This document shows positions 19,105 to 42,746 of a stretch of DNA of 59,251 nucleotides, piece after piece. The stretch lies in contig JAFSTC010000072.1 of assembly GCA_017450705.1 (NCBI GenBank), positions 1-59,251 on the forward strand. Reading direction: 5' to 3'. How positions within the stretch are numbered: the first letter of the stretch is position 1; each line of letters begins with the position of its first letter. The notes under the pieces are model-generated. The model saw nothing but the letters and a program-made list of their open reading frames with translations. It was not told the DNA's origin and made no database searches. This stretch comes from Lentisphaeria bacterium (GTDB taxonomy: Bacteria > Verrucomicrobiota > Lentisphaeria > Victivallales > Victivallaceae). The position numbers were made by a program, and so were the translations under genes.

Positions 19105-20517
19105 ATGAAGATCGATCGGAGCAAGTCCGGCGCCCTGCCGGCGGACGCGGGGTTCGGGGCGGTTTTCAAAATCGCGCTGCCGCTGATCCTCTCCAACTCC
19201 TGCCACGCGGCGAACATGTTTTTCGACCGGCTGATGCTGGCGCGGTACGCCAACGAGGCGGTGGCGGCGGCGTTCACGGGGGGACTGACCCACTTCACGC
19301 TCTCCTGTGTCTTCGTTGGGACCGTGGGCTACACGGGCACCTTCGTGGCCCAGTACGACGGCTCCGGCCACCGGGAGCGCATCGGCCGGGCCATGTGGCA
19401 GGGCATCTATCTTGCCCTGCTGGGGACGGTCGTCATGACCAGCGGTTTCTGGTGGGCGGAGCCCCTGTTTTCCTGTTTCGGCCACGATCCCGGTGTGGCG
19501 AAACAGGAGGTGATCTATTTTCAGATCCTCAGCATCGGCAGTTTCTCCTTCATGCTGGTGAACGTGCTCAGCTGCTTCTGGAACGGCCGGGGCAAAACGA
19601 ACCTCGTCCTGGCGGTGTCGGCGGTCATGACGCTCTTCAATCTGCCGCTCAATTACCTTTTCATCTTCGGCAAATGGGGGCTCCCCGCCATGGGGACCGC
19701 GGGCGCGGCCTGGGGGACCGTGGGCGCCGAGGTGATCGGACTTCTGGTCTACGCCGCCGCCTATTTCTCCCCCTCGGCCCGGCGGCACTTCGGGACCCAC
19801 CGCATCTCTTTCGACGGGGAACTGCTCCTGCGGATGATCCGCTACGGGCTGCCCAACGGCATCCATCTGGCGCTGGACCTCATCGCCTTCAACACCTTCG
19901 GGCTGCTGCTGGGGTGCTACGGCGTGGCGGTGCACGAGGCCTCGGGGATCACCTTCGGCATCAACAACATCGCCTTCTGCCCGGCCATCGGCATCGGCAT
20001 GGCGGCCTCCATCCTCGTGGGGCAGGCCGTGGGCGCGGAGCGGATCGGTCTTGCGAAAAAGGCGCTGAAAAACTGTCTCGTCATCGTGACGGCCTACACC
20101 TTTTTCATGGTCCTGCTGTTCTCCGTCTTTCAGGATCTGGTGCTCTACCCCTTCATGCGGCCCGGCGACGCCGGGCAGGCGGAGTCCATCCGCATCGCGG
20201 GGTACATGCTGTATTTCATCAGCGGCTATCTGCTGATCGACGGGTGCAGTATCGTGCTCAGCAACGCCCTGCGGGGGGCGGGGGACACGCGCTTCACCAT
20301 GTGGGCCATGACCGGGGTGGGGATCGGCCTCTTCGCCGTGCCCTGTCTCGTGCTGTATCTTGCGGGCTTCCCCTGGTGGACGCTGTGGATCGCCCTCGAA
20401 GCCGAGATCGTGCTGCTGTGCACCCTTTTCTTCCTGCGCTGCCTCGGCGGCCGCTGGACCAGAATGCGCGTCATCGAGGTCTCCGCCCTCCGGGACGGTC
20501 ACGACCCCGCCCCGTGA
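19105..20517 (+). CDS. MATE family multidrug/organic cation exporter
   Basis: 470 aa, the usual MATE length, with about 12 predicted membrane segments. The first helix region (ALPLILSNSCHAANMFFDRLMLARY) and the repeated MatE halves are typical (second half begins near residue 245 with MIRYGLPNGIHLALD). It should use a sodium or proton gradient to export small cationic or aromatic compounds from the inner membrane. GAGGA lies about 9 bp before the ATG. It follows the cysteine protein by 10 bp. Its substrate cannot be told from sequence. Confidence 0.93.
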   Translation: MKIDRSKSGALPADAGFGAVFKIALPLILSNSCHAANMFFDRLMLARYANEAVAAAFTGGLTHFTLSCVFVGTVGYTGTFVAQYDGSGHRERIGRAMWQGIYLALLGTVVMTSGFWWAEPLFSCFGHDPGVAKQEVIYFQILSIGSFSFMLVNVLSCFWNGRGKTNLVLAVSAVMTLFNLPLNYLFIFGKWGLPAMGTAGAAWGTVGAEVIGLLVYAAAYFSPSARRHFGTHRISFDGELLLRMIRYGLPNGIHLALDLIAFNTFGLLLGCYGVAVHEASGITFGINNIAFCPAIGIGMAASILVGQAVGAERIGLAKKALKNCLVIVTAYTFFMVLLFSVFQDLVLYPFMRPGDAGQAESIRIAGYMLYFISGYLLIDGCSIVLSNALRGAGDTRFTMWAMTGVGIGLFAVPCLVLYLAGFPWWTLWIALEAEIVLLCTLFFLRCLGGRWTRMRVIEVSALRDGHDPAP

Positions 20518-29661: not shown

Positions 29662-29710
29662 TTGAAAAGAAGACCGGGAGCGTCTTTTTTTGTCAACGGG
29701 GGAGCGTGTC

Positions 29711-31816
29711 ATGGACTGGAGATCGGCGCGTTGGATCTGGCTGGACGGCGATGACGGCATCGGCGTCCGGCATGTGCTTTTCCAGCGGGATTTCCGGCTG
29801 GAGGAACCGCCGGAGCAGGCGGTCCTCGCCGTGACGGCTTCCACCTCTTTCCGCCTGAGGATCAACGGCCAGTGGAGCGCCGACGGTCCCGGCCGCTCCT
29901 GGCCGGAGCATTATTCCTGCGAGATGATGGAGTGCTCCCATCTGCTGCGGCGGGGTCTGAACCGTCTGGAAGCGGAAGTTTTTTACGCGGGATCCGGTCC
30001 CCGGGGCGGTTTCCTCGCTTCTCTCCAAATGACGGATCCTTCCGGGAGCGGGGACGCCGTCGTGACCGATGAGACCTGGCTGGCCGCCCTGGTCCGGCGG
30101 GCCGATGCGCCCGAGACGGCGGAGTTTTTCGACGCCTCGTCGCCCGCCCCGGTCTTTGCCGCCGCGGCGGTGATCTGCGGCGCGGAAGAGGGGCCCTGGC
30201 GCGACATCGGGCCGCGGACGACCCCGCCGCTCTCCCGCCGCGAAGCCCTCATCCGCCGGGTGACGGAGTCCTATCTCGTCGAACGGCAGCAGGGAAATAC
30301 CGTCGCGCCGATCCGCCGGATCGGTCCCCTCCCGCCGGGAACGGTGTCCGGCGTCCAGTCTCTGATCTACCCCGACGACCGCTGCGCCGTCATCCGGCCT
30401 GCGGAGGGGGGCGACATCGAACTGTGCTGCGATCTGGGCGCGCCCGACGCGGGGTACTGGAATGTCGTCCTCCGCGCTCCCGGCGGCACGGTCGTCGACA
30501 TGACCTGCGATGAAGAGCCTGCGGTCCGCTGCGTCTGCCGCGGCGGCTGGAACCGTTTCACCAGCCGGATCCGGCGGTGCGGCCGGGTCCTGCGGCTGGT
30601 CCTGCGGCGGATGACGGGGGAGGTCAGGATCCAGTCCGTGCGGCTGGTGGAGTCCACCTATCCCGTGGTCTCCTGCGGGGAGTTCCGCTGTTCCGACGGC
30701 GTGCTGACCGCCCTCTACGACGACGGGCTGCGCGCCCTCAAGCTCGGCATGGCGGACACGTTCACCGACTTTTCCTTCGGCGGAGAGCATTTCCGGGTCG
30801 CCGATCTGCGGAACAAGATCCTCGGCGCCCTCTCCGTCTGCGGCGCGCCCGATCTGGCGGAGCACAGTCTCCGTTTCGCGGGCGAGTGTCTGACCCGCCC
30901 CCCGGAGGGCACCGATACCTTTCCCCCCGGCCCGGAGGGCGCTTCCTTCGCGGCGGCGTTCCTGTGGGTCCTGACGTTCCGCGATCTGCTGCGGGAGTGC
31001 GGGGATTCCGACTTCCTGCGGGCCGAGTACCCCCGGATCCTGCGGGTCCTGGAGGCGGCGGTCCGGAAGATCGACGGCGGGAGCGGACTTCTGAGGGAGC
31101 CTTCCCGCCCCGTCCTGCTCCGCGATACGCTGCTCTTCAAAGGGGCGCTGGATGCGGCCTGCGAACTGGCGGAGCCCGCGGGCGCTCCTCCGGAGACGGC
31201 CGGACGGCTCCGCGCCGCGGCCGAAGGGCTCTCCGCCGCCGCCAACCGGTTGTGGGACGAACGCCGTCTGGCCTACCGCGACGGTCTGGATCCCGAGGGA
31301 CGGCCTCTGGAAAAATACGGCGTGACGACCGGCATGCTGGCCCTGCTTTTCGACGTCGTCCCGGAAAAGTGGCGGGTTTCCGCCGGGGTCAATACGGTCT
31401 CGCCCCGGGAGGGGATCGACGGGACCATCGAGCCCTGTCTCTGCGGGGCGTGGTTCGACACGCTGGAGTCTCTGGAGATGTTCGAGCCGCTCATGGAAAA
31501 ACTGCGCCGGGGCGGGGCTTCGGGGTGTCCGCCGGAACTGCCGCTTTTCGCGCTGCCCCGGACCGTTCTGGGACTGCGCGCAAGGGAGGGGGGGCGCAAG
31601 TTCGACGTCAGCCCCTTCGTCCGTTCCCTCGACTGGGCCTCCGGGGTCAGGTGGACGCCCTGCGGTCCGGTCCGTCTCAGGTGGTGCAGGGAGGGGGCGA
31701 GAAACATCGAGATCGCCGTGTCCGTGCCTCCCGGCGTGGAGGCTTCCTGCGTCGAAAACGCCTCGATGAGGGATTTCGACGTCCGTTTCAGAACCATTCA
31801 GTCCGCGGAGATGTGA
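29711..31816 (+). CDS. GH78-like (alpha-L-rhamnosidase-type) protein
   Basis: 701 aa. The N-terminal beta part (ARWIWLDG, FRLRINGQWSADGPGR) and the six-hairpin-type helical region from about 340 to 650 follow the order of GH78 proteins. The usual rhamnosidase signature around the acidic catalytic residues (DCPxRxE-like) is replaced by DTFTDFSFGGEHFRVAD near residue 350, so activity is uncertain. No signal peptide: it begins MDWRSARW, hence cytoplasmic. GGGGGAG is upstream of the ATG at 29711; a TTG at 29690 is less likely. It ends 4 bp before tadB. Confidence 0.7.
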   Translation: MDWRSARWIWLDGDDGIGVRHVLFQRDFRLEEPPEQAVLAVTASTSFRLRINGQWSADGPGRSWPEHYSCEMMECSHLLRRGLNRLEAEVFYAGSGPRGGFLASLQMTDPSGSGDAVVTDETWLAALVRRADAPETAEFFDASSPAPVFAAAAVICGAEEGPWRDIGPRTTPPLSRREALIRRVTESYLVERQQGNTVAPIRRIGPLPPGTVSGVQSLIYPDDRCAVIRPAEGGDIELCCDLGAPDAGYWNVVLRAPGGTVVDMTCDEEPAVRCVCRGGWNRFTSRIRRCGRVLRLVLRRMTGEVRIQSVRLVESTYPVVSCGEFRCSDGVLTALYDDGLRALKLGMADTFTDFSFGGEHFRVADLRNKILGALSVCGAPDLAEHSLRFAGECLTRPPEGTDTFPPGPEGASFAAAFLWVLTFRDLLRECGDSDFLRAEYPRILRVLEAAVRKIDGGSGLLREPSRPVLLRDTLLFKGALDAACELAEPAGAPPETAGRLRAAAEGLSAAANRLWDERRLAYRDGLDPEGRPLEKYGVTTGMLALLFDVVPEKWRVSAGVNTVSPREGIDGTIEPCLCGAWFDTLESLEMFEPLMEKLRRGGASGCPPELPLFALPRTVLGLRAREGGRKFDVSPFVRSLDWASGVRWTPCGPVRLRWCREGARNIEIAVSVPPGVEASCVENASMRDFDVRFRTIQSAEM

Positions 31817-31820
31817 CATC

Positions 31821-32705
31821 ATGTTTACGGGAGCATTCTGGCCCGCTCTTTTCGCCCTCGCGGCCGTGACGCTGGCCATGCTGGTGCTGATCGACTTCGG
31901 CTTGTACGTCGCCTCCCGCTACCGGGAGCGGTATCTTCAGGAGGCCAAGACCGAGCTGGACGACGTGCTGATCCAGATGCCTCCGGGGCGGGTCCTCGAC
32001 CTCTCCATCGCCTCGGCGGCGACGGGGGGGATCATCACCGTCGTCTTCATGGCGCTCCAGCTCGACTCCTTCTCGTGGCAGTGGGGCGTGCCCGCGGCGC
32101 TGGCGATCTCGGCGGCGCTCTTCCCCGTGCCCCGGCTGGTCCTGAAATACATCCGCCGCCGCCGGCTCGACAAGTTCAACTTTCAGCTGGAAGACGCCCT
32201 CGGCATGATGTCCGGCGCGCTCAAGGCCGGATTCAGCATCAATCAGGCGCTGGAGGAGGTGTCCGACTGCGATCTGCACCCGGTCTCCATCGAGTTCCGG
32301 CTTCTGGTCCAGGAGCTCCGGCTGGGCGTTCCCCTGGATCAGGCTCTCGAAAACATGAGCCGCCGCCTGACTTCCGACGATTTCGATCTCGTCGTCACGG
32401 CGATCATCACCGCCCGCCAGACCGGCGGCGAACTCACCGGGACCCTGGAACGGGTGGCCATGCTCATCCGCGAGCGTGTCCGCATCAGCCAAAAGGTCCG
32501 GGCCCTCACCGCCATGGGACGGCTCCAGGCCGCGATGATCGGGGCCATGCCCTTCGTCCTGATGGTCGGACTTTACTACATCAGTCCCCGGATGATGTCC
32601 GCTTTTTTCCACAGCGCCCTGGGGATCGTCGCCGTCGTCGCCGTCGTCGTGCTGGTCACCTGCGGCTTTCTCGCCATACGCAAGATCACGAACATAGAGG
32701 TGTAG
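31821..32705 (+). CDS. tadB: TadB-like inner membrane platform protein (T2SSF domain)
   Basis: 294 aa. Membrane helices near residues 9-28, 55-100, and two C-terminal ones, with a T2SSF cytoplasmic domain (EDALGMMSGALKAGFSINQALEEV) and the signature TARQTGGELTGTLERVA. In Tad pili TadB and TadC form the platform that couples the assembly ATPase to pilin extrusion. It starts 4 bp after the GH78-like gene and ends 1 bp before tadC. No TadA ATPase, secretin or Tad pilin is in the window. Confidence 0.87.
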   Translation: MFTGAFWPALFALAAVTLAMLVLIDFGLYVASRYRERYLQEAKTELDDVLIQMPPGRVLDLSIASAATGGIITVVFMALQLDSFSWQWGVPAALAISAALFPVPRLVLKYIRRRRLDKFNFQLEDALGMMSGALKAGFSINQALEEVSDCDLHPVSIEFRLLVQELRLGVPLDQALENMSRRLTSDDFDLVVTAIITARQTGGELTGTLERVAMLIRERVRISQKVRALTAMGRLQAAMIGAMPFVLMVGLYYISPRMMSAFFHSALGIVAVVAVVVLVTCGFLAIRKITNIEV

Positions 32706-32706
32706 C

Positions 32707-33579
32707 ATGCCCGTTCTCTCACTGGTGGCCGCGCTGTGCGCGGGGATCTCCTGCGGATGCGTCGTCTGCTTCCTCGGACGGCGCATTTCGGAGGTCGGCG
32801 TGGAAAAAAAGCGGGATTTCGGCGAGAAGCGGGTCCCCCTCGTCTTCCGGCTCGTGCTGCCCTTTTCCGGCATCACCCGGCGGATCGCCTCGTCCTCGGG
32901 GACGGCTCTGTGGCGGAAGTCCGAACAGGTCCGGCTGAACATGGCCGGCTACGCCGACGTCTTCACTCCCGAGGACTTCATCGGCATCAGGATCCTTTTC
33001 GCCGGCATCGCGCTCGTTCTGCTGTTCCTCGGCGCGCTTTCCGGGCGGATCATGATCCCCTTTCTGATGGGGGTGCTGATCGCCGTCTATCCGGGCGTCT
33101 GGATGTCGTCCACCATCAAGGCCCGGCAGCTCTCCATCATGAAGGCGCTGCCGAATCTGCTGGATCTGCTGACGCTGTCGGTCGAGTCCGGCAGGGATCT
33201 TCTCTCGAGTCTCCGCGATATCCTCGGCCGCCGGCGCCCCGACGCCCTGGGCGAGGAATTGATGCTGGCTTTCCGCGAGATCCAGCTGGGACGCAAGCGC
33301 AGCGAAGCCCTGCGGGCCATGGCCGAACGGGTGCGGCAGATCGACCTCACCGCGACGGTCAACGCCATCTGTCAGGCGGACGAACTGGGCGTCAGCATCG
33401 GTCAGCAGCTGCGGATCCAGAGCGACATGCAGCGGGCGAAGCGGTTTTCGCTGGCCGAAAAGATCGCCAACGAGGCCTCCGTCAAGATCATCATCCCCGT
33501 GGTGCTGTTCATCCTGCCCGCGGTGTTCATCATTCTGCTGGGACCTCTTCTGCTTCAGACCGCGGGGCTTTTCAAGTAA
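32707..33579 (+). CDS. tadC: TadC-like inner membrane platform protein (T2SSF domain)
   Basis: 290 aa. Four membrane helices, two near 90-130 and two at the C-terminus, around a T2SSF domain (ALPNLLDLLTLSVESGRDLLSSL; later ICQADELGVSIGQQL). It pairs with TadB and is one base after it. The N-terminus has a helix and a basic linker. Together they suggest a Tad-type or archaeal-like pseudopilus platform and are the only such genes seen. Confidence 0.87.
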   Translation: MPVLSLVAALCAGISCGCVVCFLGRRISEVGVEKKRDFGEKRVPLVFRLVLPFSGITRRIASSSGTALWRKSEQVRLNMAGYADVFTPEDFIGIRILFAGIALVLLFLGALSGRIMIPFLMGVLIAVYPGVWMSSTIKARQLSIMKALPNLLDLLTLSVESGRDLLSSLRDILGRRRPDALGEELMLAFREIQLGRKRSEALRAMAERVRQIDLTATVNAICQADELGVSIGQQLRIQSDMQRAKRFSLAEKIANEASVKIIIPVVLFILPAVFIILLGPLLLQTAGLFK

Positions 33580-33582
33580 AGT

Positions 33583-33990
33583 ATGATTTTCAATCTGGAC
33601 ACGAAAAAATATCTCGCGGGATATCCCTGCTGGGCGCGGGACCCTTTCACCCGGCTGCGGGGCATGATCGGCCGCCGCTTCGTCTGCGGCAAGATGGATG
33701 CGCTGGTCTTCGAAAACTGCAGTTCCGTGCACACCTGCTTCATGGGGTATCCGCTGGACCTGGTCTATCTCGACTGCGACCGCAAGGTGGTCTCGACGGA
33801 GACGAGTTTTGCCCCCTGGCGCCTTTCCTTCGGCGGCCGGGGAGCCGTCACGGTGATCGAACTGCCGCCGGGCGCGGTGGCGTTTTCCGGGACTCTCCCC
33901 GGGCATGTCATCAATTTGGATGCGACGCTCAGCCGGGACGGGATTGAAAAATTTTCTTCCGATGCTATCTTATTGATCGATGGTCGATGA
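33583..33990 (+). CDS. DUF192 family protein
   Basis: 135 aa. It carries the DUF192 pattern: LRGMIGR near residue 25, then SVHTCFMGYPLDLVYLD, and a late VIELPPGAVAFSG. The fold is a small beta-barrel of unknown role, often exported or near pilus genes. It has no obvious signal peptide. It starts 3 bp after tadC and ends 26 bp before the FHA gene; the promoter of the FHA gene lies inside its 3' end. Confidence 0.85.
   Translation: MIFNLDTKKYLAGYPCWARDPFTRLRGMIGRRFVCGKMDALVFENCSSVHTCFMGYPLDLVYLDCDRKVVSTETSFAPWRLSFGGRGAVTVIELPPGAVAFSGTLPGHVINLDATLSRDGIEKFSSDAILLIDGR
33944..33971 (+). promoter_or_regulatory. Internal promoter for the FHA gene
   Basis: TTGAAA (33944-33949), 16 bp, TATCTT (33966-33971), inside the 3' end of the DUF192 gene. 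Confidence 0.5.
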
Positions 33991-34016
33991 TTGGGTCAAT
34001 CTGCGGGATGTGAGAA

Positions 34017-35480
34017 ATGAAGATCATTTTTGCGAATGGTGAGAATGCCGGACGGGTGTGCGAATTCGTGCTTCCCCGGATCACCGTCGGCCGGGAGGAT
34101 GCCAACGATCTGCGGATCCCCTCCGAGGGCGTTTCGCGCTATCACGCCGACTTCAAGCAGGATCTGCTCCGGGGCGGCTGGGTCGTCGCCGATCAGGGCA
34201 GCACCAACGGCGTCAAGGTCAACGGCGAACGGATCTCCGGCGAGCGTCTGCTGGCCGAGAACGACCGGGTCGAGATCGGCGAACAGCTGCTGATCGTTTC
34301 GGACCTCTCCGGGGAGCCGCCGAAGATCGTGTTCAATCCGGTCAACTCCGATTCGCCGGGGCTCGCGGCGGGACCTGCGCCCGGCGCGGCCGTCAGGGAG
34401 ACCGTCACGCCGTGCGGCGAGACCCGCGTCCTCGAAGATCTCTCCTCGACCGGAGACGGTCTGGATGCCATTGCCGCCGGTCCCCTTTTCTCCGGGAATC
34501 CCGCTTCCGGGGCCGGCGCTCCCGCTTCTTCCGGAGGGACCGGGGCCGAAAAAAAGGCGGCTCCGGGCAAGCGGGCGATGTCTCCCGTTCTCTTCTACAC
34601 GCTCGTCGTGCTCATGGCCGCGGTGGCCGTCGTCTCGTGTCTCAACATGTTTTCCGCCCGTTCCGGCAAGAGCAAGGCCGCCGGCGCCGGAAAGGATGCC
34701 GACGATGCTCCGCTCACGCTCTACTTCGAAAAGACCGACGTCCGGCCGGACAACGTGTTCCGATTCTCCCTGCTGCTCGAGAACGGCCGCGCCGTCTTCC
34801 AGGTGGATGACATCCGCAGCCGCCGCCATCCGGAGGCGCTGGTGGTGACGGATCCCCCGGGACTGGATGTCCTCCGCGGCCGCATCGGCCAGTCCGGCAT
34901 CTGGAAGGTCCGCGCCGGCGATGTCGGGCGGGACGGCAGCGGTCTCCGCCGCCGCCTCGGGATCATCCTCGGCTCCCGGACGGCGGATCTTGTCATCGAC
35001 GGCCGGCGCGCGGCTCCCGAATTCGAGGACGTGGAGAACGCCGTGTACGAATTCGCCGAAGGGTGCGGCATGCAGACCGTGTCCATGTCCGGCGAGGAGA
35101 TCCTCCGCATGGCCGAGGATAATTTCAACAAAGCCGAGGACCTCTACGCGAACCGGGAGTCGGACGGCGCCAATCTGCGCGACGCCATTTCCCGTTACCG
35201 GAGCGTCGTCAACTACCTCGGGCAGTTCGCCCCGCCCCCTCCCATGTGGAGACGGGCCAGAGAGCGTCTCGCGGAGGCGGAACGGCTGCGGACAGCCAAG
35301 CTGGAGGAGCTCGAATACGAGCGGGTCCGTCTTCAGAACGTCCGCGATTTCACCGCCCTGCGCCGGGTGTTCATGCAGACCATGGAGCTGACGGAGCCGG
35401 AAACGAAGGAGTACAACGCGGCGCGCAAGCGTCTGCATATCCTGGATGTCAGGCTCAAAAAAGGCGGAGGTTCGAGATGA
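34017..35480 (+). CDS. FHA-domain membrane protein
   Basis: 487 aa. FHA domain at 1-95: GRE at 25-27, SRYH at 40-43 and GSTNG at 61-65 are the phosphothreonine-contacting loops. A variable low-complexity linker follows (about 100-185), then one membrane helix near 190-208 (LFYTLVVLMAAVAVVSC), then an about 270-aa region with a coiled-coil-like helix part near the C-terminus (MWRRARERLAEAERL). With FHA in the cytoplasm and the rest outside, the protein could pass a phosphorylation signal to the envelope. Its kinase is not seen here. It overlaps the PEGA gene by 4 bp. Confidence 0.88.
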   Translation: MKIIFANGENAGRVCEFVLPRITVGREDANDLRIPSEGVSRYHADFKQDLLRGGWVVADQGSTNGVKVNGERISGERLLAENDRVEIGEQLLIVSDLSGEPPKIVFNPVNSDSPGLAAGPAPGAAVRETVTPCGETRVLEDLSSTGDGLDAIAAGPLFSGNPASGAGAPASSGGTGAEKKAAPGKRAMSPVLFYTLVVLMAAVAVVSCLNMFSARSGKSKAAGAGKDADDAPLTLYFEKTDVRPDNVFRFSLLLENGRAVFQVDDIRSRRHPEALVVTDPPGLDVLRGRIGQSGIWKVRAGDVGRDGSGLRRRLGIILGSRTADLVIDGRRAAPEFEDVENAVYEFAEGCGMQTVSMSGEEILRMAEDNFNKAEDLYANRESDGANLRDAISRYRSVVNYLGQFAPPPPMWRRARERLAEAERLRTAKLEELEYERVRLQNVRDFTALRRVFMQTMELTEPETKEYNAARKRLHILDVRLKKGGGSR

Positions 35481-36808
35481 AGGGGATGATGCGGATCTTC
35501 GCGGTGCTTCTCGCGGTCGTTTTCGTCGCCGCCGCCGGGTGCCGCAAAAAAGCGCCGGCGACCGGCAGGATCGATTTTTCCGGACCGGCTTCGATGGAGG
35601 TGACCTGCGCCGGAAAGACCTTCCGGGGGAATCCCATCGTGCTGAGCATGAGACCGGGCGTCCGGAACTTCCGTTTTTCGGCGCCGGGATTCTATCCGCG
35701 GGTGGGCAGCGTCACGGTGAAGCCGGGCGTGACCGTCCGGGTCGATGTGGAGCTGGAGCCAGTGGTCTCCTCCGTCATGATCGACAGCGAGCCCAGGGGC
35801 GCCAAGGTGATCTTTCAGGACAAGGCCCAGGGGGCGACGCCTCTGGTCATCTCCGATCTGGCGGTCGGCGAGTATTCCGCCCAGATCGTCCGTCCCGGCT
35901 ACGCCGAGGCGCGCGTTTCGTGGAAGATCGCCAACGAACGGCCTCTGCCGCTTCTTTTCGTCAAGCTTAAAATGACCTCCGGACGGCTCCTCGTCAAGAC
36001 CCGTCCCGAGGCGGCGCGGGTCTTCATCAACGGCCGGCAGGTCGGGAGTTCTCCCTACAACGGGACACTGGAGTCCGGCGTCTACACGCTGCGCGTCGAG
36101 CGTGACGGCTGCGACCCCCGCGAGGAACAGGTCACCATCGTCAGCGGGGAACAGACTTCCGTCGATCTCGCGCTCTCCTCCTCTCCGGGGTCCGTCGAGA
36201 TCGCCAGCGAGCCCGCAGGCGCCGAGCTTTTCATCGAAGGGCGGAAGGTCGGCGTGACGCCCTGGCGCGCGGATCCGTTCCGGCCGGGGAATTACAATGT
36301 GAAGCTGGTCTGTCCCGGATACGACACCGTCGAGCGGGTGGTGGCCGTCGCCCCGTCGAGGACCGAAAAAGTGCGTTTCACGCTTGAAAAAAGTACCGGA
36401 AGCGCCAGTTTCAAGATCCGTCCGGCGGGGGTGAGTTATCTGGTCGACGGGAAACTCCGGGGCACGGTCCAGGCCGTGAAGAGCTCCGCGACGGAGACGA
36501 AGGAGACCGTCATCGACAACCTGTCGCCGGGTCCCCATCTCCTCACCGTGACCCATCCCCGGGCCCGGCCGCTGAAGCGCAGCATCAGGTTCGAAGTGAA
36601 AAAGGGCAGCCGCTACGTGGCCCGGGAGGTGGTCGAACTCTGGGTCGCCAACTGCGAGATCACATTCAAGGACGGCCGGGTCGAATCGGGCATGATCTAC
36701 GGCGAGACGGAGACCGACGTCCTCTACAGCCCCACCGCGGGGATCAGGTATCCCGTTTCCCGGTCGTACATACGGAAGATAAAATTCATCCCCGTCACGG
36801 AGAAGTAG
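35477..36808 (+). CDS. PEGA-domain lipoprotein
   Basis: 443 aa. Starts MKGMMRIFAVLLAVVFVAAAGC, a signal peptide ending in a lipobox-like AAGC, so a lipoprotein (Cys22 after cleavage). Then at least four tandem PEGA-type beta domains of about 70 aa: each has a strand like SVMIDSEPRGAKVIF, RLLVKTRPEAARVFI, or SVEIASEPAGAELFIEG, with GxxPxxI... and GYxxV. PEGA domains occur in surface and S-layer-type proteins. The C-terminal about 60 residues differ (DGRVESGMIYGETETDVLY). It begins inside the end of the FHA gene (ATGA). Ends in TAG. Confidence 0.87.
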   Translation: MKGMMRIFAVLLAVVFVAAAGCRKKAPATGRIDFSGPASMEVTCAGKTFRGNPIVLSMRPGVRNFRFSAPGFYPRVGSVTVKPGVTVRVDVELEPVVSSVMIDSEPRGAKVIFQDKAQGATPLVISDLAVGEYSAQIVRPGYAEARVSWKIANERPLPLLFVKLKMTSGRLLVKTRPEAARVFINGRQVGSSPYNGTLESGVYTLRVERDGCDPREEQVTIVSGEQTSVDLALSSSPGSVEIASEPAGAELFIEGRKVGVTPWRADPFRPGNYNVKLVCPGYDTVERVVAVAPSRTEKVRFTLEKSTGSASFKIRPAGVSYLVDGKLRGTVQAVKSSATETKETVIDNLSPGPHLLTVTHPRARPLKRSIRFEVKKGSRYVAREVVELWVANCEITFKDGRVESGMIYGETETDVLYSPTAGIRYPVSRSYIRKIKFIPVTEK

Positions 36809-36883
36809 GTCCGCCCCGCCCTCCGAAACGGCTCCGCGCCCGGGAAATGTCTGAAAATTGTGCAAAATAAACGGTCGGCTCTA

Positions 36884-36912
36884 TTGACATTTGGACGATG
36901 TGGCGTTAAGTT
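36884..36912 (+). promoter_or_regulatory. Promoter of the Sel1-repeat gene
   Basis: TTGACA (36884-36889), 17 bp, TAAGTT (36907-36912), 72 bp before the start codon. It separates the FHA-PEGA unit from the Sel1 unit. Confidence 0.65.
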
Positions 36913-36984
36913 AAATGACGTTGAATTGTGTGATTTTGCCGTTGTGACGGTATTTTGGGTATCGCAATATTAAGGACTTTCACC

Positions 36985-39363
36985 ATGAGGAATCGGTGTT
37001 TCGGTGCGATCCTGGCAGTTTTCGCATGCTGCGTTCTGTCTGCCGGAGATGTTGATGTCGTTCAAAAGGCGGCGGCCGCCTGTTTCGGCTCTCCCGCCCC
37101 CGCGAGCGCGAAAGACGCTCTGGCCCGGTTCGAAAAGGAGGCCGCCTCCGGCAACGCCGCGGCTCAGGCCCATCTGGGGCTCTTCTCCCTGCGCGGCATC
37201 GGCGTGAAAAAGGACGCTTCCCGGGCCTTCCGACTCTTCCGCGAAGCGGCTTCTCAGGGAAATCTCCTCGGCTGCTTCGGCGTCGGGTACTGCCTCACCA
37301 CCGGGACCGGCTGCAAACGGGACTGCAAAGCCGCCGTGACTTACCTTGACCGGGCTGCCTCCGGGGGCAACAGCGACGCCATGCTCCTGCTCTTCAACAT
37401 CTACCGGAACGGCTGGGCGGGCGACTGCGATCCCGCCGCGGCGCTGAGCATGCTCCGCCGCGCCGTCCTGGCCGGAAATCTTCAGGCCGTCTGCCGTTTC
37501 GGTTACTGCTATCTCAACGGAGAACTGCTGCCGCAGAACGAGGAAGAGGCCGTCCGGATGTTCCGGACCGCGGCCGACGGCGGCATCGCCGCCGCCGAAG
37601 TGGCTCTGGCCCGGGGTTACGCCGCCGGCCGGGGCGTGAGGAAAGATGAAGACGAGGCCATCGCCCTTCTGAAGCGTCCCGTCGAACGGAACAACGCCGA
37701 AGCGCTGGTGCTCATGGGCGATTTTTACGCGCAGGGGACCGGCGTCGCCAAGTCCGGCGAAAAGGCCGTCGCGTGCTACGAAAAAGCCCGCAAAACGGAT
37801 CCGGTCCTGGCCGATCTGGCTTTGGGGCGCTTCTACGAGAAGAGCGACGAGGCCAAGTCCGAAGCGTATCTCAAGAGCGCTGCCGACGCGGGCAACGTCG
37901 AAGCCCTCGGCCGTTTGGGCGACAGATACCTCCGGGGCGGCAAGCGTGTGGAGCAGGGCATTTCCCTCCTCCGCCGCGCCGCGGACATGGGGGACGTTTC
38001 CTCTCAGCTCAAGGTTGGCAGATTCTACCTGAAACAGCTCTCCCCCCGGGAGCGCGACAAGGCTTTCCCCTATCTCAAACGCGCCGTCGACGCCGGCAGC
38101 ATCGAAGCTCTGTATTTTCTCTCTCTCTGCTACCGGAACGGCTACGGGACCAAGTACGATCCGGCCCTTGCCGCCGACGCGGCCCGGCGTTCCGCCGATG
38201 CGGGCAACAGTTACGGTCAGCTCCTCTACGGCGTCTACTGCCGCGACGGGATCGGCGTGAAGCAGGATCAGGCCCGCGCCCGCCGCTTCTTCGAGATGTC
38301 CGCGCTTCAGGACAACCGTCATGCCCGGGCCGCGCTGGCCGAGCTGGACATCAGCCGCAGCGCCGCCGCGGGTGAAAAAGTTTACGACGAAGCGTCTCTG
38401 GCCCTGCTGGAGCGTTCCGCGAAAGAGGGCGACATCAACTCCAAGTATCTCCTCGGCAAGATCTACACCGAAGGCAAGGGCGTCGCCCGCGATTACAACC
38501 GGGGCCGGAAGTACCTCGAAGAGGCCGCTGCCGCCAAGCATCCGGAGGCCTTGAATCTGCTGGGCGTCTACCACGCCCGGGGCATCGCCGGCGAACGGAG
38601 CGTCGAGAAGATGGCCGCGTGTTTCAAGGCGGCTGCCGAACTCGGAAGCGCCGCGGGATTCCTGAACCTCGGGCGGTGCTGTTTCGAAGGGACGGGCGTG
38701 AAGAAGGACCTCAAGGCGGCCTTCGAGAATTTCAGCCGCTCCGCCGAACTGGGTTCGCCCGAGGGTGAATTCTGGTACGGGCTCTGCCGTCTCAAAGGTC
38801 TGGGGTGCAAGGCCGATCCCGCCGCCGGGTTCCGCACGCTGCGCAGCGCCGCCTCCAACGGCTGGCCCGAAGCGTGCTGCTACGTCGGCCTGTGCTACCT
38901 GGACGGCACCGGGGTCAAACGCGATCCCCAGCTGGCTTTCCGGTTCTTCCGGCAGGGCGCGGAGCTGGGCAGCAGCGACGCCATGTACCAGCTGGGCCTG
39001 ATCTATAACAACGGGGCCGAGGGCGTGCCCAAGGACCGCAAGCAGGCTTTCGACTGGTTCACGAAATCCGCCCATCTGGGGAACTCCTACGGCATGTATT
39101 TCCTCGCGTCGTTCTACGAGTACGGCGAGGTGGTCCCCAAAGACACTGTGAAGGCGGCCGCGCTGTACCGTCAGTCCGCCTATGCCGGCAACCGCTACGC
39201 GCAGTATCTGCTGGGACGCTGCTACGAGACGGGGGTCGGCGTTTTCGTCGATGAGCGCGAGGCTCTGCGCTGGTATCAGAAGTCGGCGGAAAACGATTTC
39301 CCGCTGGCCGAGGAGGCCATGCAGCGCCTTGAGAAAAAACAGAACGACGCCGGAAGGCTTTGA
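36985..39363 (+). CDS. Large secreted Sel1-repeat protein
   Basis: 792 aa. Signal peptide MRNRCFGAILAVFACCVLSAG. Almost all of the mature protein is an array of about 36-aa Sel1-like repeats (A-x-x-x-LG-x-x-Y-x-x-GxGVxxD-x-x-x-A), roughly 20 copies, each with a paired helix. Sel1 arrays act as protein-binding scaffolds. It is in the periplasm or on the surface by its signal. AGGA lies before the ATG at 36985; an upstream in-frame start at 36955 lacks a ribosome site. TolC follows 75 bp after its stop. The high repeat number suggests a structural hub of the cluster. Confidence 0.9.
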   Translation: MRNRCFGAILAVFACCVLSAGDVDVVQKAAAACFGSPAPASAKDALARFEKEAASGNAAAQAHLGLFSLRGIGVKKDASRAFRLFREAASQGNLLGCFGVGYCLTTGTGCKRDCKAAVTYLDRAASGGNSDAMLLLFNIYRNGWAGDCDPAAALSMLRRAVLAGNLQAVCRFGYCYLNGELLPQNEEEAVRMFRTAADGGIAAAEVALARGYAAGRGVRKDEDEAIALLKRPVERNNAEALVLMGDFYAQGTGVAKSGEKAVACYEKARKTDPVLADLALGRFYEKSDEAKSEAYLKSAADAGNVEALGRLGDRYLRGGKRVEQGISLLRRAADMGDVSSQLKVGRFYLKQLSPRERDKAFPYLKRAVDAGSIEALYFLSLCYRNGYGTKYDPALAADAARRSADAGNSYGQLLYGVYCRDGIGVKQDQARARRFFEMSALQDNRHARAALAELDISRSAAAGEKVYDEASLALLERSAKEGDINSKYLLGKIYTEGKGVARDYNRGRKYLEEAAAAKHPEALNLLGVYHARGIAGERSVEKMAACFKAAAELGSAAGFLNLGRCCFEGTGVKKDLKAAFENFSRSAELGSPEGEFWYGLCRLKGLGCKADPAAGFRTLRSAASNGWPEACCYVGLCYLDGTGVKRDPQLAFRFFRQGAELGSSDAMYQLGLIYNNGAEGVPKDRKQAFDWFTKSAHLGNSYGMYFLASFYEYGEVVPKDTVKAAALYRQSAYAGNRYAQYLLGRCYETGVGVFVDEREALRWYQKSAENDFPLAEEAMQRLEKKQNDAGRL

Positions 39364-39438
39364 CGCCGCCGCGGATCCTGACTGAAAAACAACAAGGGAA
39401 TGTTGAAGATATTTCAAAAAAGAGGGAGACTCCAGAAG

Positions 39439-41070
39439 ATGTCCGGAAGAACTTGTCAACTTGTCGCGCTCGGTGTGCTGGCCGCTGTGATCTCAGGCGG
39501 CTGCAAGACGGCGCAGGATTATCGTGACGAACGTGCGGAATATGCCGTCAAGCACTTCGAGTTTGCCCGCTACCGGGAAATGATGGAGGGCCAGAAGCTC
39601 TCCCTCAAGGAGTGCATCAGTATGGCTCTCGACAACAACCTCGAGCTCAAAGTCATGGGCATCGAGGAAGAAGTGGCCAAAGAGATGCGCACGGCCGAGA
39701 TGCTTGGCATGCTGCCCGAACTGAACATCTCCGACAGCTTCACCGGCCGCAGCAACACCCCGGCGTCGAGCAGCAAGAAGGTCGCCGACAGCGGCATGAC
39801 CTACGGCTACAGTACCAGTCAGGACCGCAACGTCAACTATTTCAACGTCGATCTCGCGCTGAGCGTCGTGGATTTCGGACTGGCCTACTTCAACACCCAG
39901 CAGGCCCGGGACCGGGTGATGATCCGCGAACAGCGCACCCGCCGCGCCCGGCAGAATCTGACTTTCGACGTGGTCAAGGCCTACTTCCAGGTGGCTGCCG
40001 CCCAGCGCGCCATCAAGATCACCACGGGGCTCCTCGAAGACTGCCGCAGCCGTTACCAGCTGATCGAAAAACTGAGCAAATCCCGGTCCATCACCCCCTT
40101 CCGGGCCTTCGACGAGACCAAGCGCTTCGTCGAGATGGAAAAGCGTCTCACCAATTACATCCGCAGTTACGAGAACAGCTGCGTCGAACTGCGTTCGCTT
40201 CTGGGCATGCATCCCGGCGGCAAGATCCTCGTCGACGATGCCTATCTCAATCAGGTCCCCAAGTTCGAGTTCCCCGAGATCGAGCTGATGGAGCAGATCG
40301 CCCTGCTTGAGCGTCCCGAGCTTTACGAGATCGACATGCAGAAGCACGTCAACGTGCTGGAGTGCCGCAAGGAGATCGTCAAGATGTTCCCCAACGTCCG
40401 GCTCTTCTACGATTTCGTCAACAGCAACAACAGCTTCCTCTATCACGCCAGCTGGTACGAACTCGGGATCCGCGCCGCCTACAATCTGCTGAAGCTGCCC
40501 CAGCACATCAAGCAGTATCAGGCCTACAGCGCCCAGGTCGACGCCGAGGAGACCCGCACGTTCTCGCTGGCCATCGGCATCATGGCGCAGGTGCGGATCG
40601 CCCACGCCAATCTCATCTCCGTCAAGGAGCGTTATGAGATCGACAACAAGGTCTACACGGCTTACTCCAAAAACCTGAAGTGGGCGCTGGCCAGCAAGAA
40701 ACTGACCGGTGACCTCTCCAACCTGGAACTGGATCACATGCGTCTGGCCACCGCCGAGACCGAGATCGAGCGTCTGATGTCCCTCGGCAACGTGTACGTC
40801 GCTTATTTCCGTATCCTCAACTGCATCGGGATCAAGGATCTGGATGTCGGCAACCTCAACGCGCTGCGTGCGGAGCTCGTGGCGGCCCGTCAGCGCGCCG
40901 CCGAGGAGCTCGGCAAGGCCGCCGATGAGAACAAGGCGAAGCTGGAAAAGGCTGCCGCCGACGCCAAGAACGCTTCCGGCGACGATTTCAAGGTGGCCGA
41001 AAAACCCGTGAGCGCCTTCGGCGACATCGACTTCATCGCCATCTACGATGCCGATGCCGGGAAAAAGTAG
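39439..41070 (+). CDS. TolC family outer membrane lipoprotein
   Basis: 543 aa. MSGRTCQLVALGVLAAVISGGC is a signal peptide with a lipobox-like end (SGGC). The start at 39439 has GGGAG about 9 bp upstream; an ATG at 39400 would add 13 residues and a charged leader. The body has the TolC pattern: LSLKECISMALDNNLEL, repeated long helices and a beta part of FYDFVNSNNSFLY type. The C-terminus is helical, rich in Ala, Glu and Lys, and longer than in plain TolC. It forms a trimeric outer membrane channel in exporter or RND systems. HlyD-like genes follow at once, 6 bp after its TAG stop. Confidence 0.87.
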   Translation: MSGRTCQLVALGVLAAVISGGCKTAQDYRDERAEYAVKHFEFARYREMMEGQKLSLKECISMALDNNLELKVMGIEEEVAKEMRTAEMLGMLPELNISDSFTGRSNTPASSSKKVADSGMTYGYSTSQDRNVNYFNVDLALSVVDFGLAYFNTQQARDRVMIREQRTRRARQNLTFDVVKAYFQVAAAQRAIKITTGLLEDCRSRYQLIEKLSKSRSITPFRAFDETKRFVEMEKRLTNYIRSYENSCVELRSLLGMHPGGKILVDDAYLNQVPKFEFPEIELMEQIALLERPELYEIDMQKHVNVLECRKEIVKMFPNVRLFYDFVNSNNSFLYHASWYELGIRAAYNLLKLPQHIKQYQAYSAQVDAEETRTFSLAIGIMAQVRIAHANLISVKERYEIDNKVYTAYSKNLKWALASKKLTGDLSNLELDHMRLATAETEIERLMSLGNVYVAYFRILNCIGIKDLDVGNLNALRAELVAARQRAAEELGKAADENKAKLEKAAADAKNASGDDFKVAEKPVSAFGDIDFIAIYDADAGKK

Positions 41071-41076
41071 ACCGTC

Positions 41077-41853
41077 ATGAAGACGGAGCGTTTTTTCGGG
41101 ATCATTTTCCTCTGCGCTGCCTTTTTGTGCTGCGCGTCCGCGGACGACCATCCGGTGAAGGTCGTCCTTTTTCCTTACAGGGAGGCCATTCTGGTCTCGC
41201 AGATCGACGGGACGATCCGTCAGTATTTCTTCCGGGCCGGACAGCACTTCAAGGAGGGTGACTGCCTGCTGGCCTTCGACGACACGCCGTTCCGGCTGGA
41301 GCTGGACCGCGTCACCGCCCGCCGGCAGGAGATCGAAGTCCAGCTCAAACTGGCGCAGGAGACCTACCTCTCCCAGAAAAAGCTCTTCGAGCAGGATTTT
41401 CAGAGCAAGCTCGAGATCCAGAAGCGCGAGGCCGAGGTCGAGACATTGAAGGCCCGGCTCAAGGGCGTTCAGGCCGACTGTGCCGAGGCGGCCCTGCGGG
41501 TGGGGTACTGCCGGCGCAAGGCCCCCTTCGCCGGACGGATCGAACAGATCATGTGCCGGGAACACGAGACCGTCAGGACGGGGCAGCCCCTTTTCCGGAT
41601 CATTTACGACCGGGAGCTCCTGGCCGTCATGAACATTCCCCTCGGCGACCTCAAGCCCGTCGGGACCGAACTGGCCTTCGTCTTCGACAAAAAACGTTAC
41701 ACCGGCCGGATCCACGAGATCTCCCCCCAGGCGGACCACCGGTCCGGGACCATCGAGATCAAGGCGCTGGTATCCAACGCCGAGGGAGCGCTCATCTGCG
41801 GCATGACGGGGGAACTGGTCAAGACGGCGCCCGGCTCCGGGCCTTCCCGATGA
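41077..41853 (+). CDS. HlyD/RND-type periplasmic adaptor
   Basis: 258 aa. Signal peptide MKTERFFGIIFLCAAFLCCASA. Biotinyl-lipoyl-like half (ILVSQIDGTIRQYFFRAGQHFKEGD), a coiled-coil helix pair (residues about 75-140, LELDRVTARRQEIEVQLKLAQETY), then the second lipoyl half (YCRRKAPFAGRIEQIMC) and a short beta barrel. It should link an inner membrane pump to the TolC homologue. No RND or ABC gene is present. It starts 6 bp after the TolC gene and overlaps the next adaptor by 4 bp. Confidence 0.87.
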   Translation: MKTERFFGIIFLCAAFLCCASADDHPVKVVLFPYREAILVSQIDGTIRQYFFRAGQHFKEGDCLLAFDDTPFRLELDRVTARRQEIEVQLKLAQETYLSQKKLFEQDFQSKLEIQKREAEVETLKARLKGVQADCAEAALRVGYCRRKAPFAGRIEQIMCREHETVRTGQPLFRIIYDRELLAVMNIPLGDLKPVGTELAFVFDKKRYTGRIHEISPQADHRSGTIEIKALVSNAEGALICGMTGELVKTAPGSGPSR

Positions 41854-42746
41854 AAGAGATCCTTTTCGGTGCTTCCCGTTTCCGGGAGAGAAAACATTGT
41901 GCCTTCGCCGCCGCGGCGGCGGGGGCGTTTCTCCTTTTTTTCCCCTTCCGCTGGGCCATCGTTCTGCCGGGCGAGGTCCGCTGTGCGGTCCAGGACCGTC
42001 TGGTCGCCCGGGAGAGGGGGCGCGTCGTCGTGTCTCCGGGGGAGGGGAGCCGGCACTTCCGGAAGGGGGAAAAGATGTTCGTCCTGGACGACCCGCTCCT
42101 GCGGTTCGCCCGGGAGCGGATCGAGTACATGCTTCTCCATGACCGCCTGCTTTTCGAGCAGCAGCGGGCCGCGCGGGCCACGATCGGAGACAGTCTTCTG
42201 ACCGACCGCCGGATCAGCAGCGATCTCTTTGCCGCGGCCGAACTGGACCGCAAGATCGCTTCGGGGACGCAGTCGGCCAAAAATGACGGTACGTTCGTTC
42301 CCGCGTCGGACCGCATTTCCCCCGGATTCCCGGTCCGGACGGGGATGGTCCTGGGGACGCTCTGCTCCGGAGAGAAGATCGTCCGCGCCTATGCCGGCGA
42401 CCAGGAGGTGCGTTTTCTGAAGCCCGGTCAGCGGGTCGATCTGTACCTCAAGGACCGTCTGTCGGGCATCCCGGGGCGGATCGGCGCTGTGCATCCCATC
42501 CCGTCCCTGCTGCGGGACTCCCCTGCGCTGCTGTGTTTCGGCGGCGAACTGCCCGTGGACGCCGATCCCGACGACCCGGAGGACATCCACTCCCTGCGGC
42601 CTGTTTACGCCGTGGACGTGATCCCCGACCGGGAACTGCCCTGTCAGTACGGCCGCTTCGTCCGGGCGGAGGTCCGCCGGCGGGGCATGCTCGCCGCAAA
42701 GATCGGTTCCTTCATCGTATCCGCTCTGCGCCGGGAGTTTTTCTGA
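41850..42746 (+). CDS. Membrane-anchored HlyD-like protein
   Basis: 298 aa. The ATG at 41850 overlaps the previous gene as ATGA. One membrane helix near residues 16-37 (AFAAAAAGAFLLFFPF) precedes a biotinyl-lipoyl-like start (VRCAVQDRLVARERGRVVVSPGEGSRHFRKGEKMFVLDD), a short helical part and a beta-barrel-like end (GMVLGTLCSGEKIVRAYAGDQEVRFLKPGQRVDLYL). This matches the HlyD-like half often linked to M50-type peptidases or ABC exporters, without their catalytic domains. Last gene of the TolC unit; the run ends before the promoter at 42767. Confidence 0.75.
   Translation: MKEILFGASRFRERKHCAFAAAAAGAFLLFFPFRWAIVLPGEVRCAVQDRLVARERGRVVVSPGEGSRHFRKGEKMFVLDDPLLRFARERIEYMLLHDRLLFEQQRAARATIGDSLLTDRRISSDLFAAAELDRKIASGTQSAKNDGTFVPASDRISPGFPVRTGMVLGTLCSGEKIVRAYAGDQEVRFLKPGQRVDLYLKDRLSGIPGRIGAVHPIPSLLRDSPALLCFGGELPVDADPDDPEDIHSLRPVYAVDVIPDRELPCQYGRFVRAEVRRRGMLAAKIGSFIVSALRREFF

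Follow-up and report, generated by a model that had tools for sequence, protein, structure and literature searches.

The Tad machinery is almost exclusively encoded at a single locus, and scattered cases are very rare (Denise et al., 2019; PMC6668835). The Kil system of Myxococcus xanthus, a Tad-like predation apparatus described as unique, combines an FHA-fused ATPase with several FHA proteins and is encoded in split clusters; the Kil loci include a short secretin and a Flp pilin, and TadG is absent (PMC8460266). CpaF ATPases with an N-terminal FHA domain are a recognised class (class III), mostly betaproteobacterial, which binds phospho-threonine peptides (PMC12019362). A literature search yielded no paper on Tad in Lentisphaerota. 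Here we describe a 59,251-nucleotide stretch of DNA from a Lentisphaeria bacterium (assembly GCA_017450705.1, contig JAFSTC010000072.1, positions 1 to 59,251; hereinafter the window, contig C40 in our numbering), in which nine plus-strand genes at positions 31821-42746 encode Tad platform proteins and regulatory proteins followed by exporter components. A reading of the sequence alone had taken the entire run as a phospho-regulated envelope assembly or exporter that draws on motors encoded elsewhere. The analysis presented here makes it highly probable that the run consists of two adjacent but unrelated modules, namely a fragment of a Tad system, the motor and pilin-like parts of which are encoded elsewhere in the genome, and displaced parts of an exporter.

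The host genome, a draft of 3.97 Mb, comprises 117 contigs (C-numbers below). Its named relatives place it in Lentisphaerota close to Victivallis, in the company of genomes from rumen and hindgut, of which RGIG3718 from goat rumen is the nearest. The comparisons cover a set of 40 genomes (G-numbers; the window genome, G000, is included) and a collection of loci (L-numbers, 80 of them with names). The genes of the run and the gene that precedes it, with Pfam family assignments, are the following.

29690-31816, plus strand: rhamnosidase-like protein (alpha-L-rhamnosidase, GH78-related), 708 aa; weak Pfam rhamnosidase matches
31821-32705, plus strand: TadB, Tad inner-membrane platform protein; PF00482 (T2SSF), E 1e-20, orthologues across Lentisphaerota
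32707-33579, plus strand: TadC, second Tad platform protein; PF00482 (T2SSF), E 2.5e-12
33583-33990, plus strand: DUF192 protein, conserved in Lentisphaerota as part of the Tad operon; PF02643, E 2.5e-10
34017-35480, plus strand: FHA membrane protein; PF00498, E 1.2e-15
35477-36808, plus strand: probable lipoprotein with PEGA repeats, at the end of the Tad operon; PF08308, E 8e-47, 4 stretches
36985-39363, plus strand: Sel1-repeat secreted protein; PF08238, E 1.5e-107, 12 stretches
39400-41070, plus strand: TolC-family outer membrane channel; PF02321 (OEP), E 7e-22
41077-41853, plus strand: HlyD1, periplasmic adaptor; HlyD_3, E 8e-12
41850-42746, plus strand: HlyD2, the C-terminal HlyD half of M50-HlyD, the M50 protease half being absent; homology to M50-HlyD proteins, no Pfam family match

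The genes and domains named in the sequence-only reading are all present on one strand, with small corrections of the starts: the PEGA gene begins at 35477 and HlyD2 at 41850, each with a 4 bp overlap with the preceding gene, and the Sel1 gene most likely begins at 36985. The Sel1 assignment itself holds, but of the 20 repeats attributed to this protein Pfam counts 12 stretches individually. The dN/dS ratios against the nearest relative are about 0.08-0.36 (NG86; correctly aligned genes only, the DUF192 value against G005 having been discarded because of a wrong frame), and these genes are therefore real and constrained; for TadB, dN is 0.06 and dS 0.63, that is, purifying selection is strong. 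In agreement with the same reading, neither a TadA-type ATPase nor a secretin was found on the window contig, and the larger open reading frames scanned in the window gave zero matches to RND or ABC pumps, although a MATE-family transporter gene is located at 19105-20517. A promoter scan between the Tad unit and the Sel1-TolC-HlyD unit gave nothing above shuffled sequences and so lends no support to separate transcription of the two.

Judging from gene order in relatives, positions 31821-36808 hold the last five genes of a Tad operon that comprises seven in all, cpaB-tadA(FHA)-tadB-tadC-DUF192-FHA-PEGA, and is conserved in Lentisphaerota. Orthologues of TadB are present in 24 of the 40 genomes (the window genome included) and in the 80 named Lentisphaerota loci, 65 of which carry TadA immediately 5′ of TadB; CpaB precedes TadA in all 53 loci with room to see it, and the full run through PEGA is found in 45. 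In most loci that extend past tadB, this gene is followed by tadC and DUF192, and FHA and PEGA come next in most of those with enough sequence. Outside the genus of the window, the upstream pair encodes an FHA-TadA ATPase (about 585 aa) and a CpaB/RcpC protein (about 265 aa); the operon is intact in the cultured Victivallis vadensis DSM 14823 (L154) and in the complete genome of strain zth2 (L174). In more distant groups of the same GTDB phylum, genes for TadE-like and TadG-like proteins, CpaB, FHA-TadA, TadB and TadC form one run (at the loci L284-L292, the TadE-like and TadG-like genes lie 5′ of cpaB in several cases), which is followed in several loci by FHA and PEGA.

All 13 loci tallied without an upstream TadA belong to close relatives of the window (TadB identity 60-90%), and the absence of the motor from the window reflects a split of the operon in one genus rather than a property of the system. 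The position occupied by cpaB-tadA in relatives is taken here by the rhamnosidase-like gene, which ends 4 bp before tadB and may drive tadBC transcription; a rhamnosidase-like neighbor is also found beside tadB in G005, G020, G002 and G016. The product is 708 aa long in the window compared to 937 aa in G020, G002 and G016. Some members of the genus show additional breakage of the operon: FHA and PEGA no longer follow DUF192 in G011, G013, G014 and G023, and the TadA loci of G011 and G013, as far as they were read, did not reveal them either.

The motor and the pilin-like components are encoded at other loci of the window genome. An orthologue of TadA (66% identity to the operonic TadA of G026) is located at C15:17603-19264 and adjoins an orthologue of CpaB at C15:19399-20088; the CpaB of G026 passes the TIGR03177 cutoff (143 vs 71 bits) and matches PF16976. 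The possibility that the window encodes an orphan TadBC pair without a motor is ruled out by this cognate TadA, and the earlier suggestion that motors are encoded elsewhere is borne out for the Tad pair but not as a trait of a single envelope system. Separation of tadA and cpaB from tadBC is shared by G002, G005, G011, G013, G014, G016 and G020, in two of which tadA/cpaB are present only as contig-edge or split pieces. A TadG-like gene was detected at C25:42854-43471 (E 2.4e-40) with a custom alignment, A2, built from TadG-like genes of distant groups of the phylum, which was needed because the PF07811 (TadE) model found only the copies on C12 and C43 in this genome; the C25 TadE/TadG-like copies do not pass family models alone. 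The C25 gene is flanked by TadE-like and TadF-like genes with a GQ-type motif and a hydrophobic stretch, and the custom alignment identifies a TadG-like gene in nearly every genome that carries the Tad genes. In other families, the block consists of panD, two short Flp-like pilins, TadE and TadG (L347, L349, L350, L353, L354); panD, directly 5′ of the two pilins at these loci, was identified by eye only. The window genome also has two further Tad loci, on C12 (L050) and C43 (L049), each with its own TadA, TadB, TadC, secretin and TadE.

The scattered Tad genes are inherited together. Across the 40 genomes, tadB, tadA, cpaB and tadG in most cases occur as a complete set or are missing altogether (Fisher p 5e-7 to 3e-10, with genomes treated as independent): p is 5e-7 for tadB/tadA, 3e-6 for tadB/tadG and 3e-10 for cpaB/tadG, and the same associations hold within the genus (p 3e-3 to 4e-7), 12 of the 24 genomes of which lack all four genes. 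The TadA and TadB distance matrices are correlated (r 0.85 for 20 genomes, 0 of 5000 permutations being as high), as could result from shared descent alone. Some genomes depart from the joint pattern: G025 and G039 lack TadG, G023 lacks TadA and has only a contig-edge piece of CpaB, and most exceptions are incomplete drafts.

The Tad system of this lineage contains two FHA domains that differ in their binding sites. The FHA membrane protein encoded in the window is predicted to comprise a cytoplasmic FHA domain (1-95), a disordered linker, a transmembrane helix (190-214), a periplasmic alpha/beta domain and a helical domain (AlphaFold model, pLDDT 82). The FHA domain matches the GarA/OdhI FHA in structure comparison (Z 18), and the phosphothreonine-binding residues G25, R26, S40, R41, H43, N64 and G65 are invariant in 46 orthologues; by contrast, in the N-terminal FHA domain of TadA, the key arginine of the G-R motif is replaced by Ser, Ala or Thr in 60 of 60 sequences. 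Accordingly conserved, the FHA domain of the membrane protein is likely to be a phosphothreonine reader, whereas that of TadA is likely to be a protein-protein interaction module. Phospho-regulation, as proposed previously, is thus plausible for the FHA protein, not for the run as one system. The Foldseek/VIA results for the FHA protein are dominated by the FHA domain; for its periplasmic part, the match is to the Mago nashi fold (Z 14 at 9-10% identity), which we leave uninterpreted. In the PEGA protein (structure model pLDDT 90), Cys22 is nearly invariant.

The Tad cassette probably provides the inner-membrane and regulatory components for a machine of the Tad (type IVc pilus) kind, with CpaB and FHA-containing TadA supplied from C15 and the TadE-, TadG- and TadF-like proteins from C25. 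In such a machine, TadA would power the TadB/TadC platform, which would assemble pilin-type subunits into or through a CpaB ring; the FHA membrane protein may read cytoplasmic threonine phosphorylation and relay this signal both to the platform and across to the periplasm, while a link to the envelope would be provided by the PEGA lipoprotein.

The second part of the run, positions 36985-42746, appears from its homologies to have been displaced from a giant-protein exporter and to lie behind the Tad cassette by coincidence. TolC orthologues are present in 22 of the 40 genomes and adjoin the Tad cassette only in the window genome and in its two nearest relatives, G005 and G020, so that the units are not kept together in related genomes at large; the Sel1 gene is also found beside TolC in G011, G013 and G014. 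In G018, G012 and G008, a run of genes encodes a C39-ABC exporter, a membrane fusion protein (MFP), TolC, a giant DUF4347 protein (bearing the stretch ‘LE-R-LFEAAAA’ in its N-terminal part), HlyD1, GAF-HlyD (the GAF label is a reading of the N-terminal part, with no family match behind it) and M50-HlyD. In G023, an orthologue of HlyD1 (about 50% identical) lies next to GAF-HlyD and M50-HlyD. HlyD2 shows 34% identity to residues 419-696 of the M50-HlyD encoded on C75 of the window genome (E 6e-43), the relatives of which are about 700 aa long. Contig C75 (L130, 1-4804) begins inside a repetitive giant protein, which resembles the C-terminus of the giant protein of G020 (E 2e-53), and continues with GAF-HlyD and M50-HlyD, without HlyD1. 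DUF4347 was not found in the window genome, as expected if the giant gene is cut at the end of this contig. Presence/absence patterns link TolC with M50-HlyD (p 1e-6) and M50-HlyD with DUF4347 (p 1.5e-8). The TolC channel, the adaptor and the truncated adaptor would thus serve in the export of giant surface proteins of the DUF4347 type, and their putative partners in this genome are the GAF-HlyD and M50-HlyD proteins encoded on C75. A literature search on DUF4347 and HlyD found no paper mentioning DUF4347. The N-terminal half of M50-HlyD (L112:13856-15916) resembles the model for the daptide biosynthesis intramembrane metalloprotease, scoring 129 bits where the cutoff is 300. In G026, a DUF4347 match at C15 10194 falls within an open frame that spans about 16,200 aa; others in this genome measure 6,365 and 4,621 aa.

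The original proposal, which treats the run in its entirety as a single phospho-regulated envelope assembly or exporter, can draw on adjacency on the same strand, on a gene order kept in the two nearest relatives and on a weak association between TadB and TolC (p 0.02). It is nevertheless very improbable: the two halves are separate in every other genome seen, have independent presence/absence patterns, with no link of TadB to either M50-HlyD (p 0.35) or DUF4347 (p 1), and each has better-linked partners of its own. Only slightly less improbable is that the window cassette is in decay, left over in a genus from which this Tad system is disappearing, as the joint absence of the four genes from half of the genus, the retention of only the TadBC part in G008 and the separation of FHA-PEGA from tadBC in four genomes might suggest; against such decay stand the strong purifying selection on TadB and the presence of cognate TadA, CpaB and TadG in the window genome. 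We give equally little credence as to the original proposal to the notion that the window TadBC works with TadA of the C12 or C43 locus. Both loci carry TadA (49% and 47% identity, respectively, to the operonic type) and a secretin, but each also has its own TadB and TadC, and it is the C15 TadA that is the orthologue of the TadA adjoining this TadB in other families. For the exporter half, an assignment of TolC, HlyD1 and HlyD2 to an RND or other efflux pump encoded elsewhere is unlikely but deserves more weight than any of these, given that HlyD1 passes the cutoff of the RND adaptor model TIGR01730 RND_mfp (137 vs 94.9 bits); in relatives, however, HlyD1 sits with GAF-HlyD, M50-HlyD and often the giant DUF4347 protein, and HlyD2 corresponds by homology to the M50-HlyD C-terminal half.

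The interpretation of the run as two unrelated modules, each with partners elsewhere, has its own difficulties, among which is the TadB-TolC association mentioned above. The presence/absence tests ignore shared ancestry; G008 has TadBC-DUF192-FHA-PEGA without TadA, CpaB and TadG, and G003 and G018 show the reverse, that is, no TadBC (all three are drafts, 72-89% complete). No Flp pilin was found in the C25 block or in the other stretches of the window genome that were read, and the loci of this Tad lineage likewise yielded no secretin, although a diverged short one could be missed, so that a complete pilus is not demonstrated. The exporter unit of the window includes no ABC gene, and its own genome was not searched for an ABC pump belonging to this module.

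The secretin search had a positive control, in that the C43 secretin retrieves the C12 secretin. The hits of query L123 correspond to an antisense open reading frame over tadA and were discarded, and the few remaining ones (L058, L152, L194, L347) fall beyond the operons. Secretin genes of the same kinds are carried both by genomes that have this Tad and by genomes that lack it, and a diverged or shared secretin is possible. Adjacent pairs of secretin-domain genes (about 550-750 and 480-570 aa; for example, G000:C7:27238-29432), often several per genome, are present in many Lentisphaerota, again with and without this Tad. A more far-reaching and rather doubtful scenario is that the Tad lineage shared by Lentisphaerota and more distant groups of their GTDB phylum dispenses with a dedicated secretin, building a short (pseudo)pilus or an envelope conduit, with the CpaB ring, the phosphothreonine-reading FHA protein and PEGA replacing the usual outer-membrane exit and linking assembly to signalling by a Ser/Thr kinase.

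Tad pili are regarded as single-locus and readily transferred systems, and annotation tools rely on the single-locus layout. A lineage-wide Tad with the pilin block apart from the motor block, broken further in one genus, provides a series for studying the dispersal of a machine. Furthermore, one assembly machine here combines two chemically different FHA domains, an intact reader and one without the key arginine, with a PEGA lipoprotein, and phospho-control of a Tad motor becomes testable in the culturable Victivallis vadensis.

The exporter half of the run resembles type I secretion and C39-ABC exporters in that, in relatives, TolC is encoded with a C39-ABC protein and HlyD adaptors, but there are more adaptor-type genes (GAF-HlyD and M50-HlyD), and the window unit lacks the ABC gene and the M50 half. 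With the Tad/Flp (type IVc) pili exemplified by Caulobacter cpa and Aggregatibacter tad, the window genome shares CpaB/RcpC, TadA/CpaF, TadB, TadC and TadE/TadG-like proteins; unlike in those systems, its parts are scattered, no secretin was found at the loci of the lineage, and there are extra FHA, PEGA and DUF192 genes. The Lentisphaerota TadA has the domain order of class III CpaF (FHA, linker, CpaF), but its FHA domain lacks the arginine required for phospho-threonine binding. Kil has in common with the window lineage an FHA domain fused to a TadA-type ATPase, additional FHA proteins and components split between clusters; the window lineage differs in having TadG-like proteins and in that no secretin was found. 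By its core parts, the first module would thus be classified as a Tad system, one that resembles Kil in its FHA content and dispersal.

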